The notes under the pieces: generated by a model
Told to the model about the DNA's origin: nothing
The model's database searches: none
The model's input: the letters and a program-made list of their open reading frames with translations, nothing else
Shown: positions 15,934 to 32,381 of the stretch, in pieces
Numbering within the stretch: the first letter of the stretch is position 1
How the letters are laid out: each line of letters starts with the position of its first letter
Origin: Bacteroidota bacterium
Lineage (GTDB): Bacteria > Bacteroidota > Ignavibacteria > SZUA-365
Reading direction: 5' to 3'
Assembly: GCA_014860565.1 (NCBI GenBank)
Contig: JACZJN010000147.1
Location: 1-34,573, forward strand
DNA: 34,573 bases
Translations under genes and position numbers: made by a program

Positions 15934-16172
15934 TGCATTTCACCTCATTATCGTTCCATCCTGAAGTTTTTGGGCGATTCTTACGCGTTTCCCCTCCTTG
16001 CAGCCTGGTCGCGAATTTCTCCAATCAGTTCCCTATTTCCCGATTACATTTTATTAATCCGGTATTCAGTTTCCCGAAAGGAAGCCGGGGTATCTTGCAA
16101 GCAGTTCCGTAGTTCAGGCACATTCCATAATTCACGAGTGCGGAACGCACCCACTGCAAGCGCGAGATTCCC

Positions 16173-16658
16173 ATGCCAGAATCCTCACTCCATACCATTC
16201 TGATGTTCCGCACGCACGGGAGACTTCTCGCGGTTCCTCTCGATGCGGTACGTGAAGTGGTTCCTGCGTTTGAAGTACTCCACGCTCCGGGGTTGGCCTC
16301 GACCATTGCCGGAATGATCAGCCTGCGCGGTGAGGTGCTGCCGGTAATCGATACGGCGGTACTAATCGGGGAGGAAGTCACCCTCCTCCAACCGCAGCAC
16401 AAATTTATCATCGTTCGAGCGTCACGCCAGTCCATTGCATTCCTGGTGGATTCCGTGGAAGACCTCGTAGCACTCGAACAAAACGCCTCCGTTGATCCGA
16501 TGGCGGGGAATGGAGCGGTTCTTTTCAAAGGCGTCGTTTCAGTGGAAGAGGAAATGGTTCTCATATTGGATATCGACGCATGTTACGGAGCCGAACTGAC
16601 CCTCCTGCCTCTGGAAGTGAACGGAGCTAAAACCAAACTGGAAGGGCAATACTCGTGA
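16173..16658 (+). CDS. CheW-like coupling protein (first of two; WspB/WspD-like)
   Basis: A 161-residue protein consisting of one CheW domain. The order of blocks is typical: LLAVPLDAVREVVP, the GMISLRGEVLPVID core, and SIAFLVDSVEDLVAL. It couples receptor signalling domains to CheA in the cytoplasm. It opens the operon; no clear Shine-Dalgarno precedes ATG 16173. Its stop overlaps the GTG start of the CheR gene by four bases (GTGA), indicating translational coupling. Two CheW genes in one operon is typical of Wsp, Frz and Dif-type systems. Confidence 0.9.
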   Translation: MPESSLHTILMFRTHGRLLAVPLDAVREVVPAFEVLHAPGLASTIAGMISLRGEVLPVIDTAVLIGEEVTLLQPQHKFIIVRASRQSIAFLVDSVEDLVALEQNASVDPMAGNGAVLFKGVVSVEEEMVLILDIDACYGAELTLLPLEVNGAKTKLEGQYS

Positions 16659-18175
16659 ATGCAGAAGCGCGAGCCCAAAACATCGAATCCGGTGTCCTGC
16701 TTGCAAGCGTGCTGCACAAGATCGACACGCTGCTCGGACTCCGCTATCAGCCGCATCAGTGGAGCGATCTGCTCCGTCTGCTTAAACCGGCTGCACGCGA
16801 ACTTGGCTTTACCGATTCATCGATCTTCCTGACCTGGCTGGCAAACTCGGATCAGGACGAAAATATGATCCGTGTGCTTGCAAAACATCTAACTATCGGT
16901 GAATCGTATTTCTTCAGGGAGATCGTTGTTTTTTCCATCCTCCGGGAACAGCTGCTCCCAGCGCTGCTGGAGCGCAAACAGGCACAGGGCGACCGGCATG
17001 TGCGCATATGGAGCGCCGGCTGCAGCACAGGAGAAGAAGTGTACACGCTGGCCATTCTTCTTGATTCCTTCCTCGAAGGGAGGCAGGAATGGAAGTACAG
17101 TGTACTCGGCACGGACGTGAACCCCGTTGCGATCGAACGCGCTCGCGATGCGAAATACCGTGACTGGTCCTTCCGGGACGTACCGGCGGAGATTCACTCC
17201 TCGTATTTCGAGCAGACCGAGGACGGGCGTCATTCCGTGATTTCACGCATCAAGGACCGCACGGAGTTCAAAATGCTCAATCTTGTGAGCGCTCCCGCTC
17301 TGTACCCCGCCGGATTCGATCTCGTGTTCTGTCGAAACGTGCTGATGTATTTCACTCGCGATAAAGTGAAAAGCATCATCCAGGGATTTCGGCGTTCCCT
17401 TACCGAGGGTGGCTGGCTTGTACCCAGCCTGACCGAAACCACGCTGGTCAATAATCCGGGTTTCGAGGGTGTCCGTTTCGGAGATGCAACCCTGTTTCGG
17501 AAGCAGCCGCATGTCACGAATATTCTCACGTTCCGCGGCGATAAGGATAATGCTGCGGACGACGATGCAGAACGGGCCGTCCTGCCCGCATCGACGGGCA
17601 TGCGCAATCCGTTTGCCGGACTGTTCTCCACGCGCGAGAAGCAGGATGAACCTCAGGAGCTCTCCGAGTCGCTGCCTGCGACTGCGAGCGATAATCCCAT
17701 TGCTCCTGTATCAATACAAGACGCAGAGGAAAGCCCGGTCAATGCAGCGCTTCACGACGCGGCAGACAATCAACTCCCTGAGAATGTGCATCAGCGCATC
17801 CTGGAGGCGCGTCAACATGCCGATGCGGGTCGTCTCGATGACGCGCTCGCCGTAACGCAGACTGCGATTTCTCTCAATAAAATGGATCCGCACGCGCATT
17901 TCATGCACGGCACCATCCTCCGGGAAAGCGGTGAAACCAGCCAGGCGCTGCAGGCATTCGAACGTGCACTGTACCTCAATCAGGATTTCATTCCCGCACA
18001 TTTTTCGATAGCCACGCTGCATCATCAGCTTGGAAATCAGGCAAAGGCCCGCCGCCATTTCGGTATTGCGCTCCACCTGATCGAAGCGCAGGGCGATCTG
18101 AATCTTATCCTTGAACCCGGCGAAATAAGTGCGCAAAGGATGGTGGAAATCATTCGCACATTCATTGAACGGTAA
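16655..18175 (+). CDS. CheR-type MCP methyltransferase with C-terminal TPR domain (WspC/FrzF-like)
   Basis: A 506-residue cytosolic enzyme that methylates receptor glutamates using S-adenosylmethionine. The N-terminal helical part includes GESYFFRE (family: gET.FfRe). The SAM site IWSAGCSTGEEVYTLA lies at ~118-133, LGTDVNP at ~151-157, and FDLVFCRNVLMYF at ~221-233. A Pro/Ser/Glu linker (~290-375) joins two to three TPR units (~378-480). CheR proteins with TPRs are typical of Wsp (WspC) and Frz (FrzF) pathways, where the TPRs tune substrate choice. The start is GTG inside the CheW stop. Confidence 0.93.
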   Translation: MNAEARAQNIESGVLLASVLHKIDTLLGLRYQPHQWSDLLRLLKPAARELGFTDSSIFLTWLANSDQDENMIRVLAKHLTIGESYFFREIVVFSILREQLLPALLERKQAQGDRHVRIWSAGCSTGEEVYTLAILLDSFLEGRQEWKYSVLGTDVNPVAIERARDAKYRDWSFRDVPAEIHSSYFEQTEDGRHSVISRIKDRTEFKMLNLVSAPALYPAGFDLVFCRNVLMYFTRDKVKSIIQGFRRSLTEGGWLVPSLTETTLVNNPGFEGVRFGDATLFRKQPHVTNILTFRGDKDNAADDDAERAVLPASTGMRNPFAGLFSTREKQDEPQELSESLPATASDNPIAPVSIQDAEESPVNAALHDAADNQLPENVHQRILEARQHADAGRLDDALAVTQTAISLNKMDPHAHFMHGTILRESGETSQALQAFERALYLNQDFIPAHFSIATLHHQLGNQAKARRHFGIALHLIEAQGDLNLILEPGEISAQRMVEIIRTFIER

Positions 18176-18177
18176 GC

Positions 18178-18825
18178 ATGTACGAAGCCGCATATAGCGA
18201 ACAATACGACCCGGCGCAGTGGGAGCAGATCCGTCAAATGCTCGACACCGTGCGCATCAGTCTCGAACAGCAGAATCGCGTCACCGAAAGTGCAAACGCG
18301 GATGTGCTTCGGAAGCGTGCGAAGGTCTTTGCAGCACTCACACCGTCGACGATTGTCGAGGTGGATGAGAGCGAGGACCTGGTGCTTTTCATGCTGGGGA
18401 ATGACACCTACGGTGTTTCCTGCAACGAGATAGAAGAAGTCATTCCGCTGCAGAATCTTGTCGCCTTGCCGAATACAAACAAGTCGATCCTCGGTATTTC
18501 AAGCCTGCGGGGTATCCTTTTTTCCGTGGTCGATCTCAAGCGCGTTCTCAATATTCCCGCCTCCGAGCTGACGACGATGCATCGTGTATTGATGGTCCGG
18601 CACGAGAGTTTCAAAGTGGGATTTCTAGTGGACTCGGTACAGGGAATGCGCAGCTTCAGTAAGAATGAAATGCAGGATCTTCCTTCGGAAATCCACGAGC
18701 GTTCGCGCACCTATCTGCACGGACTCGCCCTAGGTAACGTTTTGATCCTCAACGCGCGCGTCATTCTACAGGACCAATTGGCCCCTGCTGAGGATAGAGC
18801 AGCGATGAAAGATAGCACTGAATAG
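18178..18825 (+). CDS. CheW-domain coupling protein with N-terminal extension (WspD-like)
   Basis: A 215-residue protein with a ~60-residue helical N-terminal extension (EQIRQMLDTVRISLEQQ, then LRKRAKVFA) before a CheW domain (~65-200). The CheW blocks are LVLFMLGNDTYGVSCNEI, SILGISSLRGILFSVVDL and FKVGFLVDSVQG. Extended CheW proteins with an LR.RA helix are usual in Wsp-type operons. It begins two bases after the CheR stop and is followed after 15 bp by the receptor gene, so it probably links this receptor to the operon's CheA. Confidence 0.92.
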   Translation: MYEAAYSEQYDPAQWEQIRQMLDTVRISLEQQNRVTESANADVLRKRAKVFAALTPSTIVEVDESEDLVLFMLGNDTYGVSCNEIEEVIPLQNLVALPNTNKSILGISSLRGILFSVVDLKRVLNIPASELTTMHRVLMVRHESFKVGFLVDSVQGMRSFSKNEMQDLPSEIHERSRTYLHGLALGNVLILNARVILQDQLAPAEDRAAMKDSTE

Positions 18826-18840
18826 AAACGAGGTCTGATC

Positions 18841-20637
18841 ATGCGCTGGTTCGCAAACCTGAAAACAAAATTCAAGTTATTCATCGGATTCGGTGTCGTC
18901 ATCGCCTTCCTCCTGGTTCTGATCGGAGTGGAAAATCTGCAATCGAACCGTTCACTTCAAGAGTACCGGATTCTTCAGGAGACGCAGATTCCCATCAACC
19001 AGACGGGGAACGATATCCTCAGTGAATTACTTCGTGAGCGGATGATTTTCGACCGTCTGCGTTTGCAGGGCGATCACCGTCTCACTGTGGATCAATTCGC
19101 CGCGCGCCGGGAACAGTACGTTCAGCAGCAGCGAAAAATCGATGGCCTGATTCTGCGTTTTCGCGCACTCCTCGGCAATGCGAGCCAGGAGGTTTCGGGC
19201 GATGAGGTGTTGAGCGCGCTGCAGAAACTGGACAAGCAGTTCGTCATCCTCACGCGCTCGCAGGAAACGCACACACGCCTGGCCGCCAAAGCCTTCCCAT
19301 TGTTCGAACGGGGGAATACGGACGCACTGCAAACGTTGAATGCCGAGTTCGAGGAAGACGAACAGGCGCTCGTCGGCGCGCTCGATCTGTTCAGCTACGA
19401 GCTGCGCAACCTCTTCGACGCTTCGCAGAACCGTATCAAATCCATCGAAGACACCGCCATGTGGTGGCGCATTTTCATTTTTGGTGCCGGCATCCTGCTT
19501 GTCATCTTTTTTGCCTCGTTTATTTCGCGCCTCATATCAAATCCGCTCAGTCTTGCGACCGAGATCGCCGAACGTCTCGGACAGGGAGATACCAACATCC
19601 CCATCAGCACCGACCGTCACGACGAAGTCGGCGAATTACTGAAGACCCTTGAGAAACTGAGGGCGAATTCAGACCACGAAGCACAGATCGCCGCGCGCAT
19701 CGCCGATGGTGATTTGACGGTCGAAATCACACCGCTTTCCGATAAGGATGTTCTCGGAAAGGCGCTCTCCGCAATGGTACATCGCCTGCGGACACAGATA
19801 CGCGAGATGATCGAAGGCATCAACGTGCTGGCGGCCGCAACCGCGGAACTCTCATCGACCATGGTGCAGATCGCGGCAGGCGCGAGAGAAACCGCCTCGT
19901 CGGTAAATGAAACCGCGACGACGCTGCTCGAGGTGAAACAGGCCTCGCAGCTTTCCAATCAGAAAGCCAAAATGATTTCCGATAACACCCAGCAAACCCT
20001 GCGTGTCTCCCACGATGGTGTTGACGCCATCGGGAAAAGCATCCAGAGCATGGAAAATATCCGTGAGCAGATGCGCGGGATCGCGGAAAGCATTATCAAA
20101 CTGAGCGAACAGGGCCAGGCCATCGGAGACATCGTCACTTCGGTGAATGATCTTGCCGAACAATCAAATATCCTCGCCGTGAATGCCGCCATTGAAGCCG
20201 CGAAAGCCGGTGAGTATGGGAAGGGTTTCACTGTCGTGGCCAAGGAAATCCGGAATCACGCCGAACAATCGAAGCAAGCGACGTCGAAAGTACGGTCGAT
20301 TCTCATCGATACGCAGAAAGCAACGGCATCCGCGGTCATGGTCGCCGAGCGCGGCACCAAACTCGCCGAGGACGGTGCGCAGCTCTCATCCCAGTCGGGC
20401 AACGCGATACAGACGGTGATGCAGGGTATCAATGAAACTGCGGAATCGATGCTGCAGATTGCAGCGTCGGCGAAGGAGCAGGTGGTCGGACTCGACCAGG
20501 TGACAACCGCCATTCAGCATATCAAATCAGCGAGCGAGCAGAACGTGGAATCCATACACCAGGTCGAACTGACAGCACAGAACCTCAAGGAATTGGGGAC
20601 CCGGCTGCAGCGCTTCGTCGAACGCTATAAACTCTGA
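18841..20637 (+). CDS. Methyl-accepting chemotaxis receptor with HAMP domains (WspA-like)
   Basis: A 598-residue membrane receptor. TM1 (~12-30) and TM2 (~208-232) bracket a ~175-residue helical periplasmic domain of the 4HB type. A HAMP domain (~230-285) is followed by a second HAMP-like unit (~285-318, IADGDLTVEITPLSDKDVLG), so HAMPs appear to be in tandem. The signalling domain has the conserved hairpin tip around DLAEQSNILAVNAAIEAAKA (~437-456), which binds CheW and CheA. No NWETF-type CheR tether ends the protein. GAGG precedes ATG 18841. The ligand is unknown; Wsp-type receptors respond to surface contact, but that is not shown here. Confidence 0.94.
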   Translation: MRWFANLKTKFKLFIGFGVVIAFLLVLIGVENLQSNRSLQEYRILQETQIPINQTGNDILSELLRERMIFDRLRLQGDHRLTVDQFAARREQYVQQQRKIDGLILRFRALLGNASQEVSGDEVLSALQKLDKQFVILTRSQETHTRLAAKAFPLFERGNTDALQTLNAEFEEDEQALVGALDLFSYELRNLFDASQNRIKSIEDTAMWWRIFIFGAGILLVIFFASFISRLISNPLSLATEIAERLGQGDTNIPISTDRHDEVGELLKTLEKLRANSDHEAQIAARIADGDLTVEITPLSDKDVLGKALSAMVHRLRTQIREMIEGINVLAAATAELSSTMVQIAAGARETASSVNETATTLLEVKQASQLSNQKAKMISDNTQQTLRVSHDGVDAIGKSIQSMENIREQMRGIAESIIKLSEQGQAIGDIVTSVNDLAEQSNILAVNAAIEAAKAGEYGKGFTVVAKEIRNHAEQSKQATSKVRSILIDTQKATASAVMVAERGTKLAEDGAQLSSQSGNAIQTVMQGINETAESMLQIAASAKEQVVGLDQVTTAIQHIKSASEQNVESIHQVELTAQNLKELGTRLQRFVERYKL

Positions 20638-20659
20638 TCCACTCGCACTCAACAGCGTC

Positions 20660-23296
20660 ATGAATGAAGTAGAATTTCTTCAAAAGCTGCGCGAAGCGTT
20701 TGCCATCGAAGCGGATGAACATTACCGCGCTATCAGCAAATGTCTCACCGACCTGGAGCACACATCGAACGGTGATGCCCAGGGAGTGATCGAGCTTATT
20801 TTCAGGGAGGCACACAGCCTGAAAGGGGCAGCGCGCGCAATCAACCGTGTCGATATCGAAGCACTCTGTCAGGCGCTCGAAAGCCTGTTCTCTCTCTGGA
20901 AAAAGGATCCGAAGGTCGCAGACAGGAAGCATTTTGACGCCACCGCCCAGGCCGTGGACATTCTCGCTGAGATGCTGACAAGTGATACGGAATTCTCGCT
21001 GAATCATGAAGCGCTGGAAACGGCCATAGAGCGTCTCAAGGAATTGTCCACTTCCGGAGCAGGGAAGGGCCCTGCGAGACCATCTCCGTGGAACGCGGAG
21101 CGGGAGGCGCAGAATCAAGAAGTGGCGGGGCACAGAGATGCGGTTCCCATTCAGATCCCGGAGAGCAGCTCCGAAGCAGTACATTCGGTGCCTCAGAGGC
21201 GCAACCTGGCGGCAATACCCGGCCTCCCCACCATCCCCGGACTTGATGCAATACCAGGACTCGGCGGCTCCACGGCGTGCGCAACACCGTCAAACGGCAA
21301 CGCTGCAGTTCGGTCGGAAGTCCCACCATCGAACGGTTCGCACAGCAAGACGGAGTCAAATCCGGTGAATGGCGCGCAGCTGTCTTCGGCAGCTTCGTCC
21401 GTTCCGGGAAATGGCGTTCGCGCGCACACGAACCCCGAAGGCAACCAACATTCGGTGAACAGATCGGAGACAGAATCACCACGAGATGGAGCCGCACTTT
21501 CCGGCACCGGAGCGGCATTCAGGACCGTCAAAGACACGATCCGCGTTTCCATTAGTGAATTGGAATCGCTGTATCGCCAGACCGAGGAACTGAGCAGCAT
21601 AAAATTCATGCTCGGCAGGCACGCGGCCGATCTCAGGCGCGTGATGGACCAATGCAGGGAATGGATCAGGGAGTATCACAAACAGCGGCAGAGCGTACTC
21701 GAAGAAACACAATATTCCGGCAACCGGAAGCGCGACGTGGAATTCTATACGAGTCAGAATGAAAAGCTGCAGAACTTCATGAAGTGGACCGCGCGCCAGG
21801 TCGAGGGCATCGAGTCCGCCGTCGGGAAGAATCTTGAGGACGGTCGTGGAACCATGTACATCATGGAAAGCATGTCAGAAGCCATGATGGAGAATGCGAA
21901 GCAACTCCTGCTGCTGCCGTTTTCCCTGGTAACCGATCCCTTGCCTGGCATCGTGCGCAAGCTCGCGCGCGACCTGAACAAAGACCTGCGTTTCCAGGTT
22001 CTGGGCGATGAGATCCGTATCGACAAACGCATCCTCGAAGCGCTGAAGGACCCGCTCCTGCATCTCCTCCGAAACAGTATTGATCATGGAATCGAAGATG
22101 CCGCGACACGTGCACGCTGTCAGAAATCAGTAACAGGGAGCATCACTCTGACGATTCAAACCGCCACTGACAACCGTATCGAACTGCTGCTCGAAGACGA
22201 CGGTCGCGGCATCGATATCGAACGCGTCAAGTGCAAAGCCATCACGGAAGGCGTTCTCACCGAGGAGAAGGCCAGGAAACTCGCAGATCGGGACGCACTT
22301 GATCTGGTATTTCTTTCCGGCATAACCACCAGTCCGATCATCACCGACCTGTCGGGACGCGGTGTCGGCCTCAACGTAGTGCGGGAAAATATTCTTGGAA
22401 TGGGCGGTGAAATCGATATTGAGACTGACAAGGGAACGAGGACGCTGTTTCGAATCTCGCTACCACTCTCTCTCTCGAATGCGCGCGGCGTGCTGGTCCG
22501 AAGCCAGGGTAAACTCTTCGTCGTGCCTCTGCAGTTCGTCGAACGCGGGCTCAGCATGCATCGAGAAAATTTCTCCACGCTTGATGGCAAGTCCGTGATC
22601 GACTATCACGGACGCACCGTTACCGTGCGCCGGCTTGAAGAAATTCTTACCGGGCAGAACAGCGGCAAAAGGGAAGAGCGGCCACAGGCCATCATCCTTC
22701 TCCTGCGCCTTTCTTCACGTCTTCTCGCACTCGAGGTGGACGAAATTCTCTGGGAGCAGGACGTAGTGATCAAACCGCTTCCGGCACCGGTCTCCCGCGT
22801 GCGCACTATCGCAGGAGCAACATTGCTCAGCAGCGGAGAGCTGGTGCTCGTGCTGCAGATCCCGGATCTGTTTGATGCCTCCCGGGGCGTCGTCGCTGCT
22901 GGCAGAAGCGAGCAACCGCTGCAGGAAGCCAGGCGTCATCGCCTTCTCGTGGTCGACGATTCGATCACGTCCCGCGTACTGCTCCATGATATCCTCGTCA
23001 ATTCAGGATACGAGGTTCAAACCGCGGTCGACGGCATCGACGCGCTCACCCATATGCGGGAAGAGCATTTTGATCTGATCGTCTCCGACGTTGAAATGCC
23101 GCGAATGAACGGATTCGAACTGACCGAGGCGGTGCGCAAGGATGAGAAGATGCATGATACGCCTCTCATACTTGTCACCGGCCTTGAATCACAGGAGGAC
23201 AGGGAGCGGGGATTTGATGTCGGCGCCAACGCATATATAAATAAAAGCAGCTTCGATCAAAGCAATCTCATCGATGTGATCGAGCGGCTGATATGA
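20660..23296 (+). CDS. CheA-receiver hybrid histidine kinase (WspE/FrzE-like)
   Basis: An 878-residue cytosolic kinase. HPt has phospho-acceptor His52 in AHSLKGAARA. A ~170-residue Ser/Pro/Asn-rich linker (~128-290) includes three IPGL motifs spaced exactly six residues apart (186-201). A predicted coiled-coil dimer region follows (~290-430). HATPase has HLLRNSIDHGIE (468-479), DDGRGIDI (513-520) and GRGVGLNVV (566-574). A CheW-like domain (~600-740) precedes a C-terminal receiver with D766/D767, phospho-acceptor D810 and K862. The order P1-P3-P4-P5-REC is that of WspE and FrzE; the P2 domain is replaced by the low-complexity linker. The gene follows the receptor by 22 bp and precedes cheB by 1 bp. 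Confidence 0.95.
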   Translation: MNEVEFLQKLREAFAIEADEHYRAISKCLTDLEHTSNGDAQGVIELIFREAHSLKGAARAINRVDIEALCQALESLFSLWKKDPKVADRKHFDATAQAVDILAEMLTSDTEFSLNHEALETAIERLKELSTSGAGKGPARPSPWNAEREAQNQEVAGHRDAVPIQIPESSSEAVHSVPQRRNLAAIPGLPTIPGLDAIPGLGGSTACATPSNGNAAVRSEVPPSNGSHSKTESNPVNGAQLSSAASSVPGNGVRAHTNPEGNQHSVNRSETESPRDGAALSGTGAAFRTVKDTIRVSISELESLYRQTEELSSIKFMLGRHAADLRRVMDQCREWIREYHKQRQSVLEETQYSGNRKRDVEFYTSQNEKLQNFMKWTARQVEGIESAVGKNLEDGRGTMYIMESMSEAMMENAKQLLLLPFSLVTDPLPGIVRKLARDLNKDLRFQVLGDEIRIDKRILEALKDPLLHLLRNSIDHGIEDAATRARCQKSVTGSITLTIQTATDNRIELLLEDDGRGIDIERVKCKAITEGVLTEEKARKLADRDALDLVFLSGITTSPIITDLSGRGVGLNVVRENILGMGGEIDIETDKGTRTLFRISLPLSLSNARGVLVRSQGKLFVVPLQFVERGLSMHRENFSTLDGKSVIDYHGRTVTVRRLEEILTGQNSGKREERPQAIILLLRLSSRLLALEVDEILWEQDVVIKPLPAPVSRVRTIAGATLLSSGELVLVLQIPDLFDASRGVVAAGRSEQPLQEARRHRLLVVDDSITSRVLLHDILVNSGYEVQTAVDGIDALTHMREEHFDLIVSDVEMPRMNGFELTEAVRKDEKMHDTPLILVTGLESQEDRERGFDVGANAYINKSSFDQSNLIDVIERLI

Positions 23297-23297
23297 C

Positions 23298-24410
23298 ATG
23301 GTAAATGTCTTCTCCATAGCGTATTCCTCCGGATGGGCCCATCGTCTCAACCAGCTGTGCGCGCACCGCAGCGACATTCAGATTGTGCGCACGGTGTACG
23401 GGAACGACAGCATTCTTAACGAGCTCGCAGCCTCCGGGGCCGATATTGTGGCGATCGAAGGCGGCGAGGACTGGGAACGAGTGAAAACCGTGACACGCAC
23501 AATAATGGAAGGGTATCCGTTGCCCGTGGTTATTCTTGCTTCTGAAAAAGAATGCGGGGACGACCTTCAGTCCGCCGGTCCTCTGGATGCAGGAGCGCTG
23601 AGTCTCCTCAGGATCCCTTCATACGCAGGTCCGAGCGAAGAACCCGTACTCGCCGAGCAGCTGGTGAAGAGTCTCCGTCTGATGTCCGAAGTCAAAGTTG
23701 TTCGTCGTTGGGACAGCGCGCGGCTGGAATCCCTCTCTCGCGTCCATCAGGAAGTGCGTGCCGTCGGACAGGTGACAAAGCATCTCGATATCGTTGTTAT
23801 CGGCGCCTCGGCCGGTGGTACCAAGGCACTTCAGGAGGTGTTTTCACACCTCCCGGCGGCATTCCCGCTGCCGATCCTGGTCGTGCAGCATATCGCCAAA
23901 GGCTATCTTCGGGGGTTGGCTCACTGGCTCGACGAGCAGACGGAACTCAACGTTTCCATCGCCGAAAACGGACAGAGGTTGGAAGGGGGAACCGTCTATC
24001 TTGCACCCGATGATGCGCATTTGACAGTTGACCGAAAACATTGTATTCTTCTCGCTGATGACGAGCCTGTCAACGGTTTCAAACCTTCCATCGCACGTCT
24101 GTTTTCCAGCGTTCACGATACGTATGGCGGTCATGCCGTGGCAATTCTCCTCTCCGGAATGGGGAACGATGGTGCGCAGGAAATGCTGCATCTCAATCTC
24201 GCCGGGGCTGTCACCATTGCACAGGACAAGGACACCTCGCTTATTCACGGAATCCCAGGCGAGGCGATTAAACTTGCGGCCGTCAGCCTGATCCTGCCGA
24301 TTCAGGAGATCGGTGCCGCGTTGTTGTCACTCACGGCCAAGAGTACTGCCGAAATCACAAAGACAGAAGACAGTCGCCTGGAGAACGGCGATGTCTCAGA
24401 ACAGGAATGA
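23298..24410 (+). CDS. CheB-type MCP methylesterase with degenerate receiver domain (WspF-like)
   Basis: A 370-residue enzyme that removes receptor methyl esters. The C-terminal CheB domain is intact: catalytic S171 in IGASAGGTKAL, H198 in VVQHIAKG and D291 in SGMGNDGAQEM. The N-terminal ~130 residues align in position with a receiver but lack its key residues: there is no acidic pair after the first strand (VFSIAYSS), and the phospho-acceptor position reads ADIVAIEGG, with Glu54 in place of Asp. It should therefore not be phosphorylated in the usual way, and the Glu could mimic a phosphorylated state. It starts one base after the CheA stop and overlaps a possible upstream start of the next gene. 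Confidence 0.93.
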   Translation: MVNVFSIAYSSGWAHRLNQLCAHRSDIQIVRTVYGNDSILNELAASGADIVAIEGGEDWERVKTVTRTIMEGYPLPVVILASEKECGDDLQSAGPLDAGALSLLRIPSYAGPSEEPVLAEQLVKSLRLMSEVKVVRRWDSARLESLSRVHQEVRAVGQVTKHLDIVVIGASAGGTKALQEVFSHLPAAFPLPILVVQHIAKGYLRGLAHWLDEQTELNVSIAENGQRLEGGTVYLAPDDAHLTVDRKHCILLADDEPVNGFKPSIARLFSSVHDTYGGHAVAILLSGMGNDGAQEMLHLNLAGAVTIAQDKDTSLIHGIPGEAIKLAAVSLILPIQEIGAALLSLTAKSTAEITKTEDSRLENGDVSEQE

Positions 24411-24411
24411 C

Positions 24412-25701
24412 ATGTCAACCGGAATCGAAATACTTGTCGTCGAAGACAGTCCCACCCAGGCGCTGAAGCTCAAGTACATCCTCGAAAAACAGGAGTATGC
24501 CGTCCGTCTCGCCACGAATGGTCGGGAGGGACTCGAAGCGATCGCCCAGCGGCGCCCGACACTGGTCATTTCGGATGTCCTTATGCCGGAGATGGACGGC
24601 TACGAGCTGTGCTCCCACATCAAGGCGGACGACGAATTAAGCAGCATACCGGTCATTCTTCTCACGACACTTTCCGATCCGCAGGACATCATTCGGGGGC
24701 TGGAAAGCGGGGCGGACAATTTTCTCAACAAGCCCTACAGCGAGGAAGCGCTGCTTTCTCGCATCAAGTACATTCTCATCAACATGGACGTTCGCACGCG
24801 CACGCGCACGGGCATGGGGATAGAGATCTACTTCGCGAACAAGAAGCATTATCTCACGTCGGAACGCATCCAGATCATCGATCTTCTCTTGTCGACGTAC
24901 GAAAATGCGGTCGAGAAAAACAGGGAGTTGGAGCTAGCCAACAAAAAACTGCGTGCGGTACAGGAAGAAATCGAAAAAAGCAACGATCAGCTCAAACAGC
25001 TCAACGAGCAGAAAAACATGCTGCTGGGAATGGCGGCGCACGACCTGCGGAATCCGCTCTACCTGATCGAGGGCTACAGCGAATTTCTGCTGAAGGACAA
25101 CAGCGAGAATATTTCCGCCGATCAGCGCACCATCATTTCCGCCATACAGAGCAGCAGCACATACATGGTGCAGATGATCAATGACCTGCTCGATGTGCAC
25201 AAGATCGAGACGGGTAAAATGGACCTTAAACTCGAGGTCGCGGATTTTACACAGGTCGTACGCAATGTCATAGACCGGAATGAATTCTCGGCAACAAACA
25301 AGGGTGTTGAAATAACGGTGTCTCTTCCTGACGATATTCCTCACTTCCTCTTCGATCCTTCACGGATTGAGCAGGTGATGGGGAATCTCATCGATAACGC
25401 GATCAAATTCTCGTTCAAAGGCTCTGCGATTGAAGTATCCGTGCAATATCATGATGCCGAGATCATGTTTTCCGTGAAGGATTACGGTCCGGGAATTCCC
25501 GAAAAGGAACAGGGCCGACTCTTCAAACCTTTCAGCACCACAAGCGTGAAGCCCACGGGGAACGAGAAAAGCACAGGGCTCGGGCTTGCGATAGCCGAAA
25601 GCATCGTCTCGAAGCATAATGGGAGGATCTGGGTCCAGAGCGAACAGGGGAAAGGTTCGCAATTCTGCTTCGCGCTCCCGGTTCGGCAGCAATACGTCTG
25701 A
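24412..25701 (+). CDS. Response regulator-histidine kinase fusion (REC-coiled coil-HisKA-HATPase), probable operon output
   Basis: A 429-residue soluble protein. The receiver (~5-125) has E11-D12, phospho-acceptor D55 in ISDVLMPEMDG and K107 in NKPYS. A long coiled coil (~165-200) leads to HisKA with His210 in AAHDLRNP. HATPase has NLIDNAIKFS, DYGPGIP and STGLGLAI. It occupies the operon slot that WspR (REC-GGDEF) or FrzZ fills elsewhere, so the CheA-REC kinase probably phosphorylates D55 and thereby controls a second kinase. The frame runs upstream to 24313; ATG 24412 is preferred because AGGA precedes it and it starts just after the cheB stop at 24410. ATG 24391 is the alternative. Confidence 0.9.
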   Translation: MSTGIEILVVEDSPTQALKLKYILEKQEYAVRLATNGREGLEAIAQRRPTLVISDVLMPEMDGYELCSHIKADDELSSIPVILLTTLSDPQDIIRGLESGADNFLNKPYSEEALLSRIKYILINMDVRTRTRTGMGIEIYFANKKHYLTSERIQIIDLLLSTYENAVEKNRELELANKKLRAVQEEIEKSNDQLKQLNEQKNMLLGMAAHDLRNPLYLIEGYSEFLLKDNSENISADQRTIISAIQSSSTYMVQMINDLLDVHKIETGKMDLKLEVADFTQVVRNVIDRNEFSATNKGVEITVSLPDDIPHFLFDPSRIEQVMGNLIDNAIKFSFKGSAIEVSVQYHDAEIMFSVKDYGPGIPEKEQGRLFKPFSTTSVKPTGNEKSTGLGLAIAESIVSKHNGRIWVQSEQGKGSQFCFALPVRQQYV

Positions 25702-25835: not shown

Positions 25836-26513
25836 ATGAGACTTCTTATCGTAGAAGACGAAATCAAGGTTTCTCAGTTCCTTCAAAAAGGCTTTGAGGA
25901 AGAATTATTTTCAGTCGACACCGCCCAGGACGGGGAGCAGGGCTTGTTCCTTGCGATGACCGAAAACTATGACGTCATCATCCTCGACCTCATGCTCCCG
26001 AAAATGAACGGGGTCGATGTTCTGAAGGAACTTCGCAAGGAAAAATCCACACCCGTGCTCGTGCTGACCGCCAAGGGACAGCTGGAGAGCAAGGTGGAGG
26101 TTCTGAACATCGGGGCGGACGACTACTTGACCAAACCGTTCGCACTTGCGGAATGCATCGCCCGTGTGCGATCCCTTATGCGCCGCGCGCAGATGGAAAA
26201 ACCTTCGAACGTCCTCTCTGCCGATACCCTGGAGCTCGATCAGATCCAGCATATCGTCAAGAGGGAAGGCAAGGTGATTGATCTTACCGTCAAGGAGTTC
26301 AAGCTCCTCGAGTATCTGCTCCGCAGCAAGAATACCGTTCTGACGCGCTCTGCCATCATCGAGCATATCTGGGAAATCACCTTCGATACAGGGACCAACG
26401 TACTCGACGTCTACATGACGCGTCTGCGCAAGAAAGTGGACGACGATTTCGAAGTGAAGCTCATCCATACCATACGCGGCGTCGGCTACATTCTCAAGGA
26501 CGACGAGGAATGA
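25836..26513 (+). CDS. OmpR/PhoB-family response regulator
   Basis: A 225-residue DNA-binding regulator. The receiver (1-~118) has E7/D8, phospho-acceptor D51 in IILDLMLPKMNG, the TAK switch residue at ~78-80 and K100 in TKPF. The winged-helix domain (~125-222) contains LTVKEFKLLEYLL and ends IHTIRGVGYIL, as in the CusR/PhoB group. The start has no convincing Shine-Dalgarno, but the MRLLIVEDE opening fits the family exactly. Its stop overlaps the kinase start (ATGA), so the two are co-translated. It sits directly upstream of the pilus-like locus; whether it binds the repeats there is untested. Confidence 0.95.
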   Translation: MRLLIVEDEIKVSQFLQKGFEEELFSVDTAQDGEQGLFLAMTENYDVIILDLMLPKMNGVDVLKELRKEKSTPVLVLTAKGQLESKVEVLNIGADDYLTKPFALAECIARVRSLMRRAQMEKPSNVLSADTLELDQIQHIVKREGKVIDLTVKEFKLLEYLLRSKNTVLTRSAIIEHIWEITFDTGTNVLDVYMTRLRKKVDDDFEVKLIHTIRGVGYILKDDEE

Positions 26514-27565
26514 AAATCGGTCAGAGGCAGAAGGCCATTCTGCTCTACTCTTCGACCATTTTCGGCGCCTTCGTGCTGATCTTTCTTCTGGTCATCACGA
26601 TTTTCACACAGCATTTCTATTCCTTGAATGTTTTCGACTCGAACGTACTCGAACGATACCGCTCGACATTCACGGGCATAGGTATTTTGTTCATCCCTGC
26701 CGGGCTGTTTTTCGCGCTTGCTATCGGCTGGATTATTTCCCAGGAACTGCATCCCAAGAAGCAGCGGGATAGTTTCCGTATTGATGGCCCGGGAGACATT
26801 GCCGAAAGGGAAGAGGATTTCCGGGAAAAGATTCACACGGTGCACAGCACCATCAAGAGCATGCAGGCGGCGTACGAGCAGATTCAGACGTTCTCCGCGA
26901 ATGCTTCGCACGAACTGCGTACGCCGCTGACGATCATGCGCGGCGAGATCGAGCTCGCCCTGCGCAACCCGAAATCCCCCGATGAATATCAACTCCTGCT
27001 CGGGAGCCTGCACGAGGAGATCATGCGGCTCTCGCGCATACTCGACGATCTCCTGCTGATTGCGAAAACGGAGATCGGCGAACGACCGATAGAACTGCAG
27101 CCGATGGATCTGCGGGAACTTGTCGAGGAATTGGCGGACGAGGCGGAGATGTTCGCTGAACAGACGGGGATCAACTTCGAGCTCGGCGAAACCGTCGATG
27201 CATTCGTCGAAGCGGAACCCCTGCGCATCCGTCGTGTGCTGCTCAATCTGATTGACAACGCCGTCAAGTACAACCGGAAGAACGGAACGGTGCGAATGTC
27301 GATGGCGCTCGATAACGATTTCGTCGCGGTGCGCGTCGAGGACACCGGCATCGGGATTCCTCCCGAAGCCATCCCCCGGCTCTTCGAGCGCTTTTACCGA
27401 GTCAACGATTCCGAGAAGCAGGGGACGAAGGGCACCGGCCTCGGACTCTACCTGGTGCACTGGATCGTCAAGAACCACGGCGGAACGATCGAGGTGGAAA
27501 GCCAGCCTGGGCAGGGCAGCGCCTTCACCCTGCGCCTCCCGCTGCGCAATGTTAGCATATCATAG
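26510..27565 (+). CDS. Membrane histidine kinase partnered with the OmpR regulator
   Basis: A 351-residue kinase. Two TM helices (~10-33 and ~54-77) are separated by only ~20 residues, so there is essentially no periplasmic sensing domain; it may sense the membrane or a partner protein. A short linker follows (no clear HAMP consensus). HisKA has His134 in NASHELRTPL. HATPase has NLIDNAVKYN, DTGIGIPPE, RFYRVN and GTGLGLYLV. All catalytic boxes are intact. It overlaps the regulator stop by four bases. The stop is followed by 329 bp without a credible gene, which holds two copies of the 46-bp repeat. Confidence 0.93.
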   Translation: MKIGQRQKAILLYSSTIFGAFVLIFLLVITIFTQHFYSLNVFDSNVLERYRSTFTGIGILFIPAGLFFALAIGWIISQELHPKKQRDSFRIDGPGDIAEREEDFREKIHTVHSTIKSMQAAYEQIQTFSANASHELRTPLTIMRGEIELALRNPKSPDEYQLLLGSLHEEIMRLSRILDDLLLIAKTEIGERPIELQPMDLRELVEELADEAEMFAEQTGINFELGETVDAFVEAEPLRIRRVLLNLIDNAVKYNRKNGTVRMSMALDNDFVAVRVEDTGIGIPPEAIPRLFERFYRVNDSEKQGTKGTGLGLYLVHWIVKNHGGTIEVESQPGQGSAFTLRLPLRNVSIS

Positions 27566-27634
27566 TATAATACCCGATACTCTTAAGACATTACCCTCAG
27601 CAACTCATCCAGCCCTCCTACTTACCTTTCACTC

Positions 27635-27680
27635 TTGTAATTCTGCATTCAGCGGTTTGTAAGGTTCGCCTTGTAAATTG
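27635..27680 (+). repeat. 46-bp TTGTAA-rich repeat, copy A
   Basis: It begins TTGTAATTCTGCATTCAG and ends CTTGTAAATTG. It contains TTGTAA at repeat positions 1, 23 and 37. By eye it matches copy B at about 37 of 46 bases without gaps. It lies in the 329-bp gap between the kinase and the first pilin-like gene, 132 bp upstream of copy B. Confidence 0.75.
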
Positions 27681-27766
27681 ACCTCTGTAACATTCATCAG
27701 GTCAGTGAAACAATACGCAATCATGTTCAACAGCTCTTCAAAATCGGCCCCGGAAATGTTACATCG

Positions 27767-27812
27767 TTGTAATGCAGAATTCAGCCGTTTGTAAGAATGA
27801 CCATGTAAATTG
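27767..27812 (+). repeat. 46-bp TTGTAA-rich repeat, copy B
   Basis: It begins TTGTAATGCAGAATTCAG and ends CATGTAAATTG, with no gaps relative to copies A and C. It starts 128 bp before the ATG of the first pilin-like gene. The remaining gap sequence, 27566-27894, shows no gene I would defend. Confidence 0.75.
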
Positions 27813-27894
27813 CACAGTAGATTTTCGCAGTAAGAAAACAGTCCTAGTTCTCTAATCACACTCTCTCTCTTCAACATTTTCCAGGAGATTTGTT

Positions 27895-28332
27895 ATGGGT
27901 ACGCAACAGCTTCTTCTCATCGTCCTCGGTGTCATCATTGTCGGTATCGCCGTTGTGGTTGGTATCAACATCTTCGGATCCAACGCTGAGCAGGCCAACA
28001 AGGATGCCGTGACGCAGGATTGCCTCCGCGTCGCAGCGGCAGCACAGGGCTTCTTCCGCAAGCCGGAAATGCTCGGTGGCGGCGAAGGCGATTTCACGAA
28101 CATTGAAATCACCGATTGCGGTATGACCGCTGACGACGGTGAGACCATGGTCAGCACGAACATCAACGGTGTGTATACCCTCTCTGGTAATGCCGATGCG
28201 GATCTCACTATTACCGGCAATCCCCTCGATGGAACTGGAGCAGCCGACGTCGAACGTGCTGTCGTGATCACGCTCGACATGGCCGGTGCCACCGATGCCG
28301 ACCGCGTTTCGACTGCATACACTGGCTGGTAA
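27895..28332 (+). CDS. Small pilin-like protein 1 (leaderless, type IV pilin/pseudopilin-like)
   Basis: A 145-residue protein. A hydrophobic helix begins almost at the start codon (MGTQQLLLIVLGVIIVGIAV, continuing to ~28), followed by a charged helix (SNAEQANKDAVTQDCLRVA) and a beta-rich C-terminal domain ending YTGW. This is the shape of a type IV pilin or pseudopilin: helical spine plus globular head, with C43 and C75 well placed for a disulfide. It lacks a basic leader and the G|F-x3-E prepilin peptidase site. AGGAG lies seven bases before the ATG. Its own strong terminator follows, as expected for an abundant monocistronic subunit. The pilin role is inferred from architecture and from the GspE/GspF genes downstream; I do not recognise a named family. 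Confidence 0.7.
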   Translation: MGTQQLLLIVLGVIIVGIAVVVGINIFGSNAEQANKDAVTQDCLRVAAAAQGFFRKPEMLGGGEGDFTNIEITDCGMTADDGETMVSTNINGVYTLSGNADADLTITGNPLDGTGAADVERAVVITLDMAGATDADRVSTAYTGW

Positions 28333-28371
28333 TATCAACCAACGGAACTCTCTCTTCATAGCATTCGGTTC

Positions 28372-28403
28372 AACGCCGCCGTCCCCGGGACGGCGGCGTT
28401 TTT
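28372..28403 (+). terminator. Strong rho-independent terminator after pilin-like gene 1
   Basis: A perfect 13-bp stem, aacgccgccgtcc (28372-28384) with ggacggcggcgtt (28388-28400), has a 3-base loop and is followed by tttaat, giving five Ts in a row with the stem end. This is the strongest terminator in the window. It isolates the first pilin-like gene as its own transcript. Confidence 0.92.
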
Positions 28404-28444
28404 AATATTACCCCGGTGATGCGAGAGTCCGATAGGTTTCAATT

Positions 28445-28490
28445 TTGTAATGCCGGATTTAATCGTTTGTAATGTTGCACTTGTAGATTG
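28445..28490 (+). repeat. 46-bp TTGTAA-rich repeat, copy C
   Basis: It begins TTGTAATGCCGGATTTAATC and ends CTTGTAGATTG. By eye it matches copy B at about 34 of 46 bases without gaps. It starts 115 bp before the ATG of the second pilin-like gene, just after the terminator of the first. Confidence 0.72.
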
Positions 28491-28559
28491 CATTCAAGTA
28501 TGTGCAGGAACCCTGAAGTAGATAACAGGTTGTCGACAGCAGTGTAAAGGAGCGTTGAA

Positions 28560-28976
28560 ATGGGTTCACAACAGTTATTGCTGATCGTTCTCGGGTGTAT
28601 CGTTGTCGGCACGGGCGTGGCCCTGGCGCTTCTGTTTTTTGGCTCAAGCGCCGAGCAGGCGAACAAGGACGCGCTGACGCAGGATTGCCTCAAACTGATC
28701 TCTACCGCGCAGGCCTATTTCGGCAAGCCCGCAATGCTGGGCGGTGGGGACCACTCATTCAAGGGGATCACGATTCGTGATTGCGGCATGGCGATGAACG
28801 AGAAAGGCGTGGGGCAGAACCTGACCGGCACATTCGCAATGGTGGATATCACGGATCCCACGCTGAGCGTTCAGGCAGTGTCAAACACGAATGCCGCACA
28901 GACGGTTACCGTAACCATCGACATGCGCGAGAGTACCCCTGAAAAACGTCTTTCCGTCGAATATACGGGTTGGTGA
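28560..28976 (+). CDS. Small pilin-like protein 2 (paralog of the preceding gene)
   Basis: A 138-residue paralog of the 27895-28332 product. The first 45 residues are nearly the same (MGSQQLLLIVLG, SSAEQANKDALTQDCLKL), the two cysteines keep positions 43 and 75, and the protein again ends YTGW; the middle of the head domain has diverged. An extra cysteine (C13) sits inside the TM helix. No prepilin leader or Glu5-type signature is seen. AAGGAG lies seven bases before the ATG. No terminator separates it from the platform gene, so it may be read together with the assembly genes, unlike its neighbour. A role as alternative or initiating subunit is inference. Confidence 0.7.
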   Translation: MGSQQLLLIVLGCIVVGTGVALALLFFGSSAEQANKDALTQDCLKLISTAQAYFGKPAMLGGGDHSFKGITIRDCGMAMNEKGVGQNLTGTFAMVDITDPTLSVQAVSNTNAAQTVTVTIDMRESTPEKRLSVEYTGW

Positions 28977-29046
28977 TCATAACGCGCTTTTTGGCCCGAA
29001 TCCCCTCCGATTATTACTCGCCTCTCTCTCAACCTGCCTTTCATAT

Positions 29047-29092
29047 TTGTAATGCGTGTTTAAGTCCCTGTTAAGAATGCAGCACTATCTTA
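29047..29092 (+). repeat. Degenerate 46-bp repeat, copy D
   Basis: It shares TTGTAATGC at the start, preceded by CTTTCA as in copy A, and a TTAAGAATG block at the position of the second hexamer. The third hexamer is not recognisable. It starts 130 bp before the platform-protein ATG. It is the weakest copy, and its family membership is partly supported by its position. Confidence 0.45.
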
Positions 29093-29176
29093 CGGTGTGA
29101 GGATGCGACCGACTGTCCCGTTTCAGAGAGCATCGCAGCGCATCCGAAGGAAGTAGGAAAAGAAAGGAAGTATATC

Positions 29177-30625
29177 ATGGCGGATTTCAGATTCCAGGGC
29201 GTTGTCCCATCCGGGAAGATCATCCAGGGTACCATATCGGCTAACAACGCGGCCGAGGCGAAGAAGAAGATTCAGGAACTGTCGAAGGGACGCGGTTTCC
29301 GCCTCAATCAGCTCGACAAGCGTGCGGCATACGTCTACAAGGCGAAAAAAGGCGAGAAGGTCACCGAGGGTGAGCAGAAGGCCTATTCGAAGTCCGAGGT
29401 CGAGAATGCTCTTACTTCAATGGGGTACAAGGTCGTTTATGTCCGCAAAAAATTGGCTATCAATGTCGGTTCACCGCCGGTTGCGGATATCATCACTTTT
29501 GTGCGCCTGAGCGCCGACCTTCTGCGTGAGAAACTCCCCTTCAACGAAGTGATCAGTCTCCTTTCCAATGACATGGAAAACCGGATGCTGAAGGAGACGC
29601 TCAAGGATATCAATTCCGATCTCCGCAAGGGCGCCGAAAGCGAGCGCGTGTTCATGAAATACGAGCATGTTCTCGGAAAATTCACCGCGAAGATGCTGGG
29701 CCTCGCCTCGAAAAGCGGCGCCATGGCCGAAATGTATGAATCGACTGCGAAGTTTCTCGAGCGCCGTATGGAATTCAAAAAAAGCATGAAGAGCGCGATG
29801 ATGATGCCCATGATCACTCTCGTCATTCTCTTCCTGGCTGTGATCTTCTACGTTGCATACATATTTCCCGAAACAGCGCGCATGTTCCTCAAATACGGCA
29901 TCGAACTGCCGCCCATGACCGCCGCCACGCTTGAATTTTCGGAGTGGCTGGTCGCAAACATCATTTTCTTCGTGATTGCGACGATCGGAATGATTGTGGG
30001 CGTGATCATGCTCTTCACGAATGCGAAAAGCCGAACGTGGATCGATAAGATTTCCTTCCGTGTTCCCGTTCTCGGTGGGCTGATACACAAGACTGCCATC
30101 GAGGTATTCTGCCGCGTGTTTTATTCGCTGTACAGCGGTTCGGGTGAAAACATCGATGTGATCAAGACCGCGGCGGAGGCGACGGGAAACAAACATTTCG
30201 AGAGACAGATCCTCACGGTCACTATTCCCATGATGCTCAAACACGGGAAAGGACTGCACGAGAGCTTCGAGGCTTCCGGTGTGTTTACACGCACGGCTCT
30301 GTCCCGCTTCCATGCGGGCGCCGAGACGGGTATGGTCCGCGAAACGGCCCAACAGCTCGCCAACTACTACGAGCGTGAAACCACGTACAAGCTGAAGTCG
30401 GTTGTCGATTTCATGCAGCTGTGGGTCGCACTCCTTATCATGGTCGTCATGGCCGCCCTGACTATCGTTTCGTCCGAAACCTCCGTCATCAAACCGAAAG
30501 CAGCTCCGGGCATGGGCGACTTCTGGTATCTGCACATGCTCCTCACCACCGGACCCATTACTCACTATCTGAAACGGATCTACAATGGATGCCGCAGCTT
30601 CCTTACTGGAACGGAAAATCGATAA
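29177..30625 (+). CDS. GspF/PilC-family inner-membrane platform protein with duplicated N-terminal module
   Basis: A 482-residue polytopic protein of the type II secretion/type IV pilus platform family, which anchors the assembly ATPase and pulls subunits from the membrane. Two GspF domains (~105-230 and ~305-430) and three TM helices (~208-230, ~260-282, ~412-432) are seen. Landmarks are FVRLSADLLREKLPFNEVI, LASKSGAMAEMYEST and FHAGAETGMVRETAQQLANYYERE. The N-terminus normally has one module of the form F.Y.a....G....G...A....eA...L...G. Here two appear in series: residues 4-45 (FRFQGVVPSGKIIQGTISAN) and 52-91 (YVYKAKKGEKVTEGEQKA). AAGGAAG lies six bases before the ATG. The 3' end overlaps the ATPase gene by 41 bp. 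Confidence 0.93.
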   Translation: MADFRFQGVVPSGKIIQGTISANNAAEAKKKIQELSKGRGFRLNQLDKRAAYVYKAKKGEKVTEGEQKAYSKSEVENALTSMGYKVVYVRKKLAINVGSPPVADIITFVRLSADLLREKLPFNEVISLLSNDMENRMLKETLKDINSDLRKGAESERVFMKYEHVLGKFTAKMLGLASKSGAMAEMYESTAKFLERRMEFKKSMKSAMMMPMITLVILFLAVIFYVAYIFPETARMFLKYGIELPPMTAATLEFSEWLVANIIFFVIATIGMIVGVIMLFTNAKSRTWIDKISFRVPVLGGLIHKTAIEVFCRVFYSLYSGSGENIDVIKTAAEATGNKHFERQILTVTIPMMLKHGKGLHESFEASGVFTRTALSRFHAGAETGMVRETAQQLANYYERETTYKLKSVVDFMQLWVALLIMVVMAALTIVSSETSVIKPKAAPGMGDFWYLHMLLTTGPITHYLKRIYNGCRSFLTGTENR

Positions 30626-32381
30626 AGTCGGCGTCGCCCTTCTCCACAAGGGTATCGTCGATCGGGAGACGATTTCCAAGGCGATTGCCACCAAGGAGAA
30701 AGAGGCAGGCCGCAAGCATCGCAGCCTGGCGGAGATCCTGGTCGAGGATTATGCGCTCGATCACCATGTCGTTTTTTCCGAAGTAGCCAGAATCTACGCG
30801 TTCAAGACGCTGAAGATCGACGAAGCGATGACCGAGCGCCGCCTGAGCATCATCAAGCAGATGATCGACACGCTCTCGCAGGAGCAGAAGGTCATGCTGT
30901 TCAAGGCGCGTACGCTGCCGCTGCAATTCGATACACGTACACCGGACAAGCTCGTACTGGTCTCTGCTGTCCCGATCCATCGCGAGATCCCGCGCATCGC
31001 GAGCTACTTCCGTGCGCTGAAATACGAAGTCTACTACGCGGAATTGAAAGCGCTGCAGCCCCATCTCGATAACCTCCTGCGAGGCGACAACATCTTCCTC
31101 GAAAGCATCAAGGAGATGGAGGCGGAGCTGCAGGAATCCGACATGGACTCGGGGATTGACGAAGCAGAGCTCGACCAGGAAATCAACAAGAGCATGCTCG
31201 TCAACCTTTTCGAAGGGAGCCTCGTTGAAGCCGTACGAACAGGTGTCAGCGATATTCACATCTTCCCGACGACAAAGATGGTCACGGAATTCCATTTCCG
31301 TGTCGACGGCAAACTGGCGCTGTGGAACAAAGTCGAGGGGACGCGACCCGAAGCCGTGCTGGCGGTGGTCAAGGATCGAAGCATCAATATCGACCGCTTC
31401 GAGCGGGATGCGGCGCAGGACGGCTTCATCCAGCGGACCATCGACAATTTTATCATTCGTTTCCGCGTTTCCGTATTGCCAATCGCCGGATCGGAATACG
31501 CGCAGAAATTCGAAAGTATCGTTATTCGTGTCCTCGACAGCCGCAAGGTGATCAAGGATATTTCGAAGATTGGTTTCCAGCCGAAGGCTTTCGAGTGGTT
31601 CCAGGCGTCCATTTCCAAACCCCAGGGCATGATCATTCTCACGGGTCCAACGGGAAGCGGAAAAAGTACGACGCTGGTCGCTGCCTTGTATTCCGTCATC
31701 ACACCCATGGTCAATGCGCTGACGGTGGAGGATCCTGTCGAATACGTCATCGACGGCGCACGGCAGATCAAGATTTCGCACAAGGTCGATTTCGAACAGG
31801 CCATCCGGGCCATCCTGCGTCACGATCCCGACATTGTCATGGTAGGTGAGATGCGCGATAAGCTGACCGCGGATATCGCCATCAAGCTCGCGAATACCGG
31901 ACACCTGACGTTTTCCACGCTGCATACCAACGATGCGCCCAGCGCGGTTACACGTCTGTTCAAGATGGGCATCGAACCGTTCCTTATCGCATACGCGATC
32001 AACCTCGTCGTCGCCCAGCGCCTCGTGCGCAGGCTGTGTCCGAAATGCAAGCGACCGTCAAAGGACCTCGATGAGGCGGAACTGCTCAACGTCGGTTTTA
32101 CGCCGGAAGAAATCGAGAACACAACATTTTACGAGCCGGTGGGCTGTCCGAGCTGCGTGAAGGGATACAAGGGCCGCGCAGCCATCCACGAATCCCTGTT
32201 TTTCTCGAGAGAGATCCGCAAGGCAGTGTTCGATTCAGGTGACGATATCGACGAAGATAAAATTCGAAGCATCGCAATCAGTCAAGGCATGTTGACGCTG
32301 CGTGCCAGCGCGCGCGAGCGCGTGAAGGAAGGGGTCACGTCCGTCGCCGAGGTCATCTCGGCAACCATGTCTGATGAATAG
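30585..32381 (+). CDS. GspE/PilB-family assembly ATPase with MshEN-like N-terminal domain
   Basis: A 598-residue hexameric ATPase that powers subunit assembly from the cytoplasm. Walker A is GPTGSGKST (354-362), Asp box VEDPVEY (381-387), Walker B DPDIVMVGEMRD (414-425) and His box STLHTNDAPSA (444-454). The zinc tetracysteine is C485-x2-C488 and C521-x2-C524, which marks an extension-type (GspE/PilB/MshE) rather than a PilT-type retraction enzyme. The N-terminus (residues 11-36) follows the MshEN spacing in degenerate form: KVGVALLHKG then IVDRETISKAIATK. The gene starts 41 bp inside the platform gene, without a clear Shine-Dalgarno, so translation is probably coupled. Confidence 0.95.
   Translation: MDAAASLLERKIDKVGVALLHKGIVDRETISKAIATKEKEAGRKHRSLAEILVEDYALDHHVVFSEVARIYAFKTLKIDEAMTERRLSIIKQMIDTLSQEQKVMLFKARTLPLQFDTRTPDKLVLVSAVPIHREIPRIASYFRALKYEVYYAELKALQPHLDNLLRGDNIFLESIKEMEAELQESDMDSGIDEAELDQEINKSMLVNLFEGSLVEAVRTGVSDIHIFPTTKMVTEFHFRVDGKLALWNKVEGTRPEAVLAVVKDRSINIDRFERDAAQDGFIQRTIDNFIIRFRVSVLPIAGSEYAQKFESIVIRVLDSRKVIKDISKIGFQPKAFEWFQASISKPQGMIILTGPTGSGKSTTLVAALYSVITPMVNALTVEDPVEYVIDGARQIKISHKVDFEQAIRAILRHDPDIVMVGEMRDKLTADIAIKLANTGHLTFSTLHTNDAPSAVTRLFKMGIEPFLIAYAINLVVAQRLVRRLCPKCKRPSKDLDEAELLNVGFTPEEIENTTFYEPVGCPSCVKGYKGRAAIHESLFFSREIRKAVFDSGDDIDEDKIRSIAISQGMLTLRASARERVKEGVTSVAEVISATMSDE

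Follow-up and report, generated by a model that had tools for sequence, protein, structure and literature searches.

A heptamer-repeat element beside a CopR-like two-component system is predicted to act as an activator-dependent promoter of pilin-like, chemosensory and exported-protein genes

The window, by which we mean the whole stretch of 34,573 nucleotides analysed, contains five copies of a DNA element made of four spaced heptamers and a TAnnTT box, and the element recurs throughout the order to which this Bacteroidota genome belongs. We consider it probable that each copy is an OmpR/PhoB-class activator site replacing the −33/−35 element of a predicted activator-dependent promoter, and that this promoter is run by the adjacent response regulator. 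The copies in the window are as follows:

27624..27681, forward strand: element A, with a TAAATTG box at 27674; profile E 1.9e-13, in the training set
27624-27630, 27635-27641, 27646-27652 and 27657-27663, forward strand: the heptamers of element A, at an 11-bp pitch
27756..27813, forward strand: element B, with its box at 27806; profile E 2.2e-13, in the training set
28434..28491, forward strand: element C, with a TAGATTG box at 28484; E 1.5e-9, in the training set
29036..29093, forward strand: element D, with a TATCTTA box at 29086; E 3.6e-10, in the training set
16041..16098, forward strand: fifth element, with a TATCTTG box at 16091; E 1.1e-5, held out of the model

The initial annotation described A, B and C as gapless repeats of 46 bp starting at 27635, 27767 and 28445, which proved exact: the pairs share 37 (A-B), 34 (A-C) and 34 (B-C) matching positions, whereas, when the three intergenic segments concerned were shuffled 100 times, the best pair of 46-mers had no more than 28 (mean 25.0). 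Element D, which had been called degenerate, is indeed the weaker match (22, 27 and 27 of 46 against A, B and C), but none of its heptamers is missing, and their offsets, like that of its box, are unchanged. The repeat unit is best written as four heptamers at an 11-bp pitch, nnCTTtC / TTGTAAT / GATTcAG / yTGtAAG (heptamers −1, 1, 2 and 3), which start at about −10, 1, 12 and 23 if the first T of TTGTAAT is position 1, followed 10 bp past the last heptamer by the TAnnTT box. Of the TTGTAA hexamers noted earlier at positions 1, 23 and near 37, the one near 37 overlaps the box at position 40, and conserved heptamers that had gone unnoticed lie at position 12 and at about −10.

These features were defined in an alignment of 31 copies, taken from the neighbourhood of pilin-like genes in the genome itself and in 13 related genomes, together with one site of the same genome found by pattern. 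The alignment is gap-free, with high information within the conserved heptamers and low information in the variable 4-bp spacers between them. The TA and TT of the box are invariant in the 31 copies, the base that follows TAnnTT is G in about 69% by weight, and the full TTTG occurs in a minority of copies. Among 50 unique copies outside the model, a lag of 11 was the strongest of lags 5-19, and 48 had TA at position 40 and 47 had TT at position 44, although the search model includes these columns, so that the conservation of the box among new sites is in part a product of the model and not independent evidence. In two copies, the TA comes one base later.

The genes that follow the window copies, with one terminator-like feature between them, are listed below; the names of the two pilin-like proteins come from context, as neither (27895-28976) has a Pfam or NCBIfam match.

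16173..25701, forward strand: chemosensory cluster cheW-cheR-cheW-MCP-cheA-cheB-hybrid kinase, target, probably co-transcribed
27895..28332, forward strand: pilin-like protein 1, target
28372..28400, forward strand: terminator-like perfect 14-bp inverted repeat with a T-run, between pilin-like gene 1 and element C
28560..28976, forward strand: pilin-like protein 2, target
29177..30625, forward strand: platform protein (T2SSF), target
30585..32381, forward strand: assembly ATPase (T2SSE), downstream, probably on the same transcript as the platform gene

In agreement with the initial annotation, the 46-bp repeats of B, C and D begin 128, 115 and 130 bp before the ATG codons at 27895, 28560 and 29177; measured from the box, the distance to the start codon is 89, 76 and 91 bp, and 82 bp for the fifth element, which directly precedes cheW, the first gene of the chemosensory cluster. 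The fixed placement before genes that had been proposed applies to B, C and D but not to A, whose box is located 221 bp upstream of pilin-like gene 1. A and B form a tandem pair that is also present in two genomes of the same genus, where heptamers and boxes are kept while the intervening sequence drifts. Tandem copies occur in other genomes too, three in G004 and two in G012. Separately, a 9-bp inverted repeat flanks the space between the two elements, with TGTAACATT at 27686-27694, just 3′ of A, and AATGTTACA at 27755-27763, just 5′ of B; this repeat, TGTAACATT/AATGTTACA, is kept in the same-genus genome G001 and absent in G003. By eye, another terminator-like inverted repeat, GCCGACCTTCCGAGGTCGGC, was seen at 25750-25769, past the chemosensory cluster and ahead of the regulator gene.

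We searched the 4.75-Mb assembly of the same genome with a sequence-only profile built from the 31 copies, a search that the initial annotation had suggested as a check. It returned 14 matches at E<=10, 13 of them clear (E<=1.3e-5) and one more at 0.105, with no sign of random scatter. Five of the clear sites were in the model (A-D and C164:43705) and eight were new, including the one within the window at 16041-16098, before the chemosensory operon. A scattered or mobile repeat was also considered and rejected, given the gap in E-values after the clear sites and the conserved placement. Across the order, the element is present in 16/16 genomes at E<=0.001. In a set of 41 genomes, 18 were matched at E<=0.01, namely the 16 of the order and 2/25 others (E 0.0035 and 0.0042), and in 245 genomes of the class, searched with stricter filters, 16 were matched at E<=1e-4, all from this order (0/229 others). 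The value of so sharp a DNA signature, in an order represented here only by assembled genomes, is that a whole regulon can be listed from sequence alone.

A total of 94 matches were found across the order, and flanks were read for 40 regions in relatives and nine loci of the genome itself (52 site instances), the rest being mostly copies of the main locus already aligned or weaker sites. The downstream proteins form cross-genome groups of 17, 7, 6, 5, 4, 3, 2 and 2 members (single-linkage BLAST, E<=1e-4), and the recurring targets are pilin-like genes, the platform gene, CheW, PilX-like proteins, exported proteins and a CHASE kinase. The presence of the same architecture before these genes in relatives, together with the limited number of sites in the genome, favours the promoter or operator role that had been put forward for the repeat. 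Relatives of the pilin-like proteins occur in 26/41 genomes searched. Matches at the position of the cheW site, with the pilin element following about 11.4-11.8 kb further on, were found in eight genomes including this one, and the next gene belonged to one CheW group in all four genomes read. Pfam searches of representatives gave Nal1_C and S64 above cut-off in one exported protein, subtilase in another and weak trypsin-like matches; further representatives were a CHASE-HisKA kinase, CheW, and proteins with Hepar_II_III_C just above cut-off, PKD/SprB below cut-off or beta-helix/HYR. The seven-member PilX-like group, whose representative has no Pfam match, is named after its N-terminus and neighbourhood, and "exported" refers to signal-peptide-like N-termini judged by eye. 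Genes were called automatically, with unreliable starts in a few cases.

The downstream end of the element looks like part of a promoter. The Bacteroidota housekeeping promoter has TTTG near −33 and TAnnTTTG at −7; TTG was found 19-22 bp from the box in 0/81 copies, and because of this the promoters look activator-dependent. The full Bacteroidetes promoter TTTG-N18-22-TAnnTTTG was not enriched in the genome (23 versus 25 in the control), and the looser form TTG-N19-21-TAnnTT was weakly so, with 11 sense and 5 antisense occurrences compared with 2.6 in shuffles (90 upstream regions, 387-kb sample); for this reason, we only infer that the TAnnTT box is a sigma-A −7 element. The lack of TTG also bears on the opposite reading, in which the regulator represses by occupying the −35 region and blocking polymerase, and the promoters fire on its release. 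The sites do overlap the −33/−35 region, and, as described in PMC11195947, Pseudomonas paraeruginosa CopR represses one operon and activates another from one and the same palindrome, but with TTG at this spacing in none of the copies we regard repression as improbable. Even less probable is an alternative sigma factor that reads the third heptamer and the box, the upstream heptamers being extra. Although these two parts are highly conserved and their spacing is fixed, conservation spans two more strong heptamers and a fourth, partly conserved one, and only 10 bp separate the third heptamer from the box, a gap that is short for common sigma promoters. A sigma-54 reading of the letters GGC...TTGC was dropped by eye, as the spacing is not constant between copies. 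Finally, the position of the repeats 115-130 bp before start codons could suit a structured RNA leader in the 5′ untranslated region, another option raised in the initial annotation. This we consider extremely improbable: the promoter-like box lies at the downstream end, alignment folding of the 31 sequences gave 0 pairs, and no Rfam match was obtained at E<=1.

We now turn to the genes that could act on such a promoter. Two of them are encoded downstream of the chemosensory cluster and ahead of the first pilin-like gene:

25836..26513, forward strand: response regulator of the OmpR/PhoB class (Response_reg + Trans_reg_C), nearest to the CopR/CzcR/SilR subfamily
26510..27565, forward strand: histidine kinase (HisKA + HATPase_c), nearest to NCBIfam cztS_silS_copS, below cut-off

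This regulator had been proposed from the outset, and it has become the leading candidate on the strength of its orthologs across the order, their constant recognition helix, its CopR subfamily and the CopR consensus in the element. Both regulator domains score above gathering (PF00072, 102.5 bits; PF00486, 89.2 bits). The best NCBIfam match of the regulator is cztR_silR_copR (TIGR01387, 262.3 bits, below the cut-off of 279.2), and the kinase scores 208 with cztS_silS_copS against a cut-off of 292.6; the regulator is the best CopR-subfamily match of its own genome, and the solved DNA-binding domain nearest to its own is that of PcoR. Orthologs of the regulator, full or truncated and 68-100% identical, are found in 15/16 genomes of the order, compared with a best identity of 60% elsewhere. 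The exception is G013, where the kinase lies near the contig start and the regulator may be cut off. Kinase orthologs are present in 14/16 genomes, of which two are partial and that of G009 has an internal stop, and both genomes lacking one have a truncated regulator. Regulator, kinase, element and pilin-like gene share one contig in 11/16 genomes, and kinase, element and pilin do so in 2 further genomes, although the order is a single clade and the co-occurrence of element and regulator is thus not independent evidence. The recognition-helix stretch TNVLDVYMTR is constant in 15/15 sequences of the order and found in 0/15 outside relatives. The profile search of this genome gave no site before the regulator's own gene. 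In G009, the kinase ortholog (C75:19603-20604) carries one in-frame TAA, which could be a sequencing error, and both regulator and element are intact.

Element and regulator also fit each other when known binding sites are considered. The P. aeruginosa CopR consensus CTGACAn5GTAAT, as reported in PMC11195947, was matched within <=3 mismatches by 54/81 unique copies, all at one offset and 2 of them exactly (27 copies fell outside), compared with a mean of 4.3 and a maximum of 9 in shuffled copies. The CusR palindrome was matched by 22/81 copies versus about 1 in shuffles, and the remaining copies carry another upstream heptamer. The consensus was not tuned, and the link was found after the neighbouring regulator had been proposed on position alone; its GTAAT half does fall on the heptamer that is best conserved in the element.

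Taking these data together, we propose that each copy would act as an activator-dependent promoter with two stacked boxes, each formed by two 7-bp half-sites 4 bp apart, to which phosphorylated dimers of the regulator at 25836-26513 would bind. The proximal box, ending 10 bp upstream of the TAnnTT(g) −10/−7-type box, would stand in for the missing −33/−35 element, and the bound regulator would recruit housekeeping RNA polymerase. For B, C, D and the cheW site, this would put transcription starts some 65-80 nt upstream of the start codon. With about 13 such sites at its disposal, the kinase/regulator pair may thereby co-activate a pilus-like apparatus, the chemosensory system, a CHASE sensor kinase and exported proteins.

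The orientation of the half-sites is ambiguous. OmpR/PhoB sites are described as direct repeats (PMC4832192), whereas those of CusR and CopR are described as palindromes (PMC11195947), which eases the conflict with the direct-repeat rule without settling it. Heptamers 1 and 3 are clearly direct, and heptamers −1 and 2 appear inverted relative to them; for four of the six heptamer pairs, the inverted pairing has a clearly higher score than the direct one, and against a purely direct-repeat site, inverted pairings score as well or better. Upstream heptamers were of the inverted type in 40 of 81 copies, direct in 17 and other in 24. When 79 unique copies were compared, the direct lags 11 and 22 as well as the inverted centres 19, 41 and 61 exceeded column permutation (single-test p 0.0005-0.0125), with p values of 0.04 for direct and 0.10 for inverted repeats when the choice of lag or centre was allowed for.

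Good scores of the inverted pairings TTnCA-N4-TGnAA and TTCAG-N4-CTGAA are also what one would expect if the same promoter element were bound by another factor, either a symmetric-dimer regulator (CRP/FNR-like or other) or a second CopR-like regulator. The latter does exist (C132:39886, 249 bits), but at E<=1e-55 it is found in only 5/16 genomes of the order and the element in 16/16. Moreover, the dyad centres, located about 20 and 41 bp ahead of the box, differ from the usual CRP class I/II positions, and it is the window regulator/kinase pair that adjoins the element, in a conserved order. We thus regard a different factor as unlikely, if the most serious of the alternatives. The second regulator, which has its own kinase, is encoded at G000:C132:39886-40554, with the element at C132:30710 about 9 kb away; it is 45-50% identical and was detected at E<=1e-55 in G000, G007, G009, G014 and G013, being the only match in G013.

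The regulon that we attribute to the window regulator is built from parts of known kinds. Its distal box is like the CopR/CusR/CzcR boxes (CTGACAn5GTAAT; ATTCATnnATGTAAT) in sequence and arm spacing, at one fixed offset in 54/81 copies, and the best NCBIfam matches of regulator and kinase, below cut-offs, are to this same subfamily. In contrast to these systems, the element has two boxes stacked at a 22-bp pitch, and its targets are pilus-like, chemosensory and exported proteins rather than metal resistance. The Mycobacterium tuberculosis PhoP direct repeats and the PhoB pho box are described as 7-bp motifs with a 4-bp spacer, as in the element (PMC4832192), and the Escherichia coli pho box substitutes for the −35, as we propose here (PMC4971064); unlike PhoB/PhoP sites, the heptamer sequence is different and two of the four heptamers are of unclear orientation. 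The OmpR-class WalR/VicR box TGTWAH-N5-TGTWAH (PMC4168254) shares TGTAAT-type half-sites and the 11-bp pitch, but the two TGTAA half-sites of the element are spaced 22 bp apart, another heptamer lying between them. According to PMC12802237, constitutive activation of OmpR-class Cpx in P. aeruginosa alters chemosensory chpA/chpB and pilT expression; these are small decreases in a large stress regulon, and the motif GTAAA-N5-GTAAA is unlike the element. A literature search, largely without subscription journals, retrieved no paper on this regulon or on OmpR-class pilin control in the lineage.

The element connects the pilus-like genes, the chemosensory genes and those for exported enzymes with a single named two-component pair, a link testable in vitro, and it suggests that a regulator of the CopR type has here acquired a role outside metal resistance. 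More tentatively, and with somewhat less than even confidence, we speculate that the ancestor of the order took over a two-component system of the metal-sensor type as a master switch for surface life, so that a surface or envelope signal would act through double-box promoters on the pilus-like machine, the chemosensory array, exported peptidases and adhesin-like proteins.

Individual sites show further variation. At C132:15766 (L076) in this genome, a well-conserved element precedes a short ORF, an apparent remnant of a gene of the peptidase group. In three sites of the PilX-like group (L158, L161 and L165), the upstream heptamer is identical to heptamer 2 (TTCAG type), and the element thus amounts to a near-exact tandem repeat of one 22-bp box.
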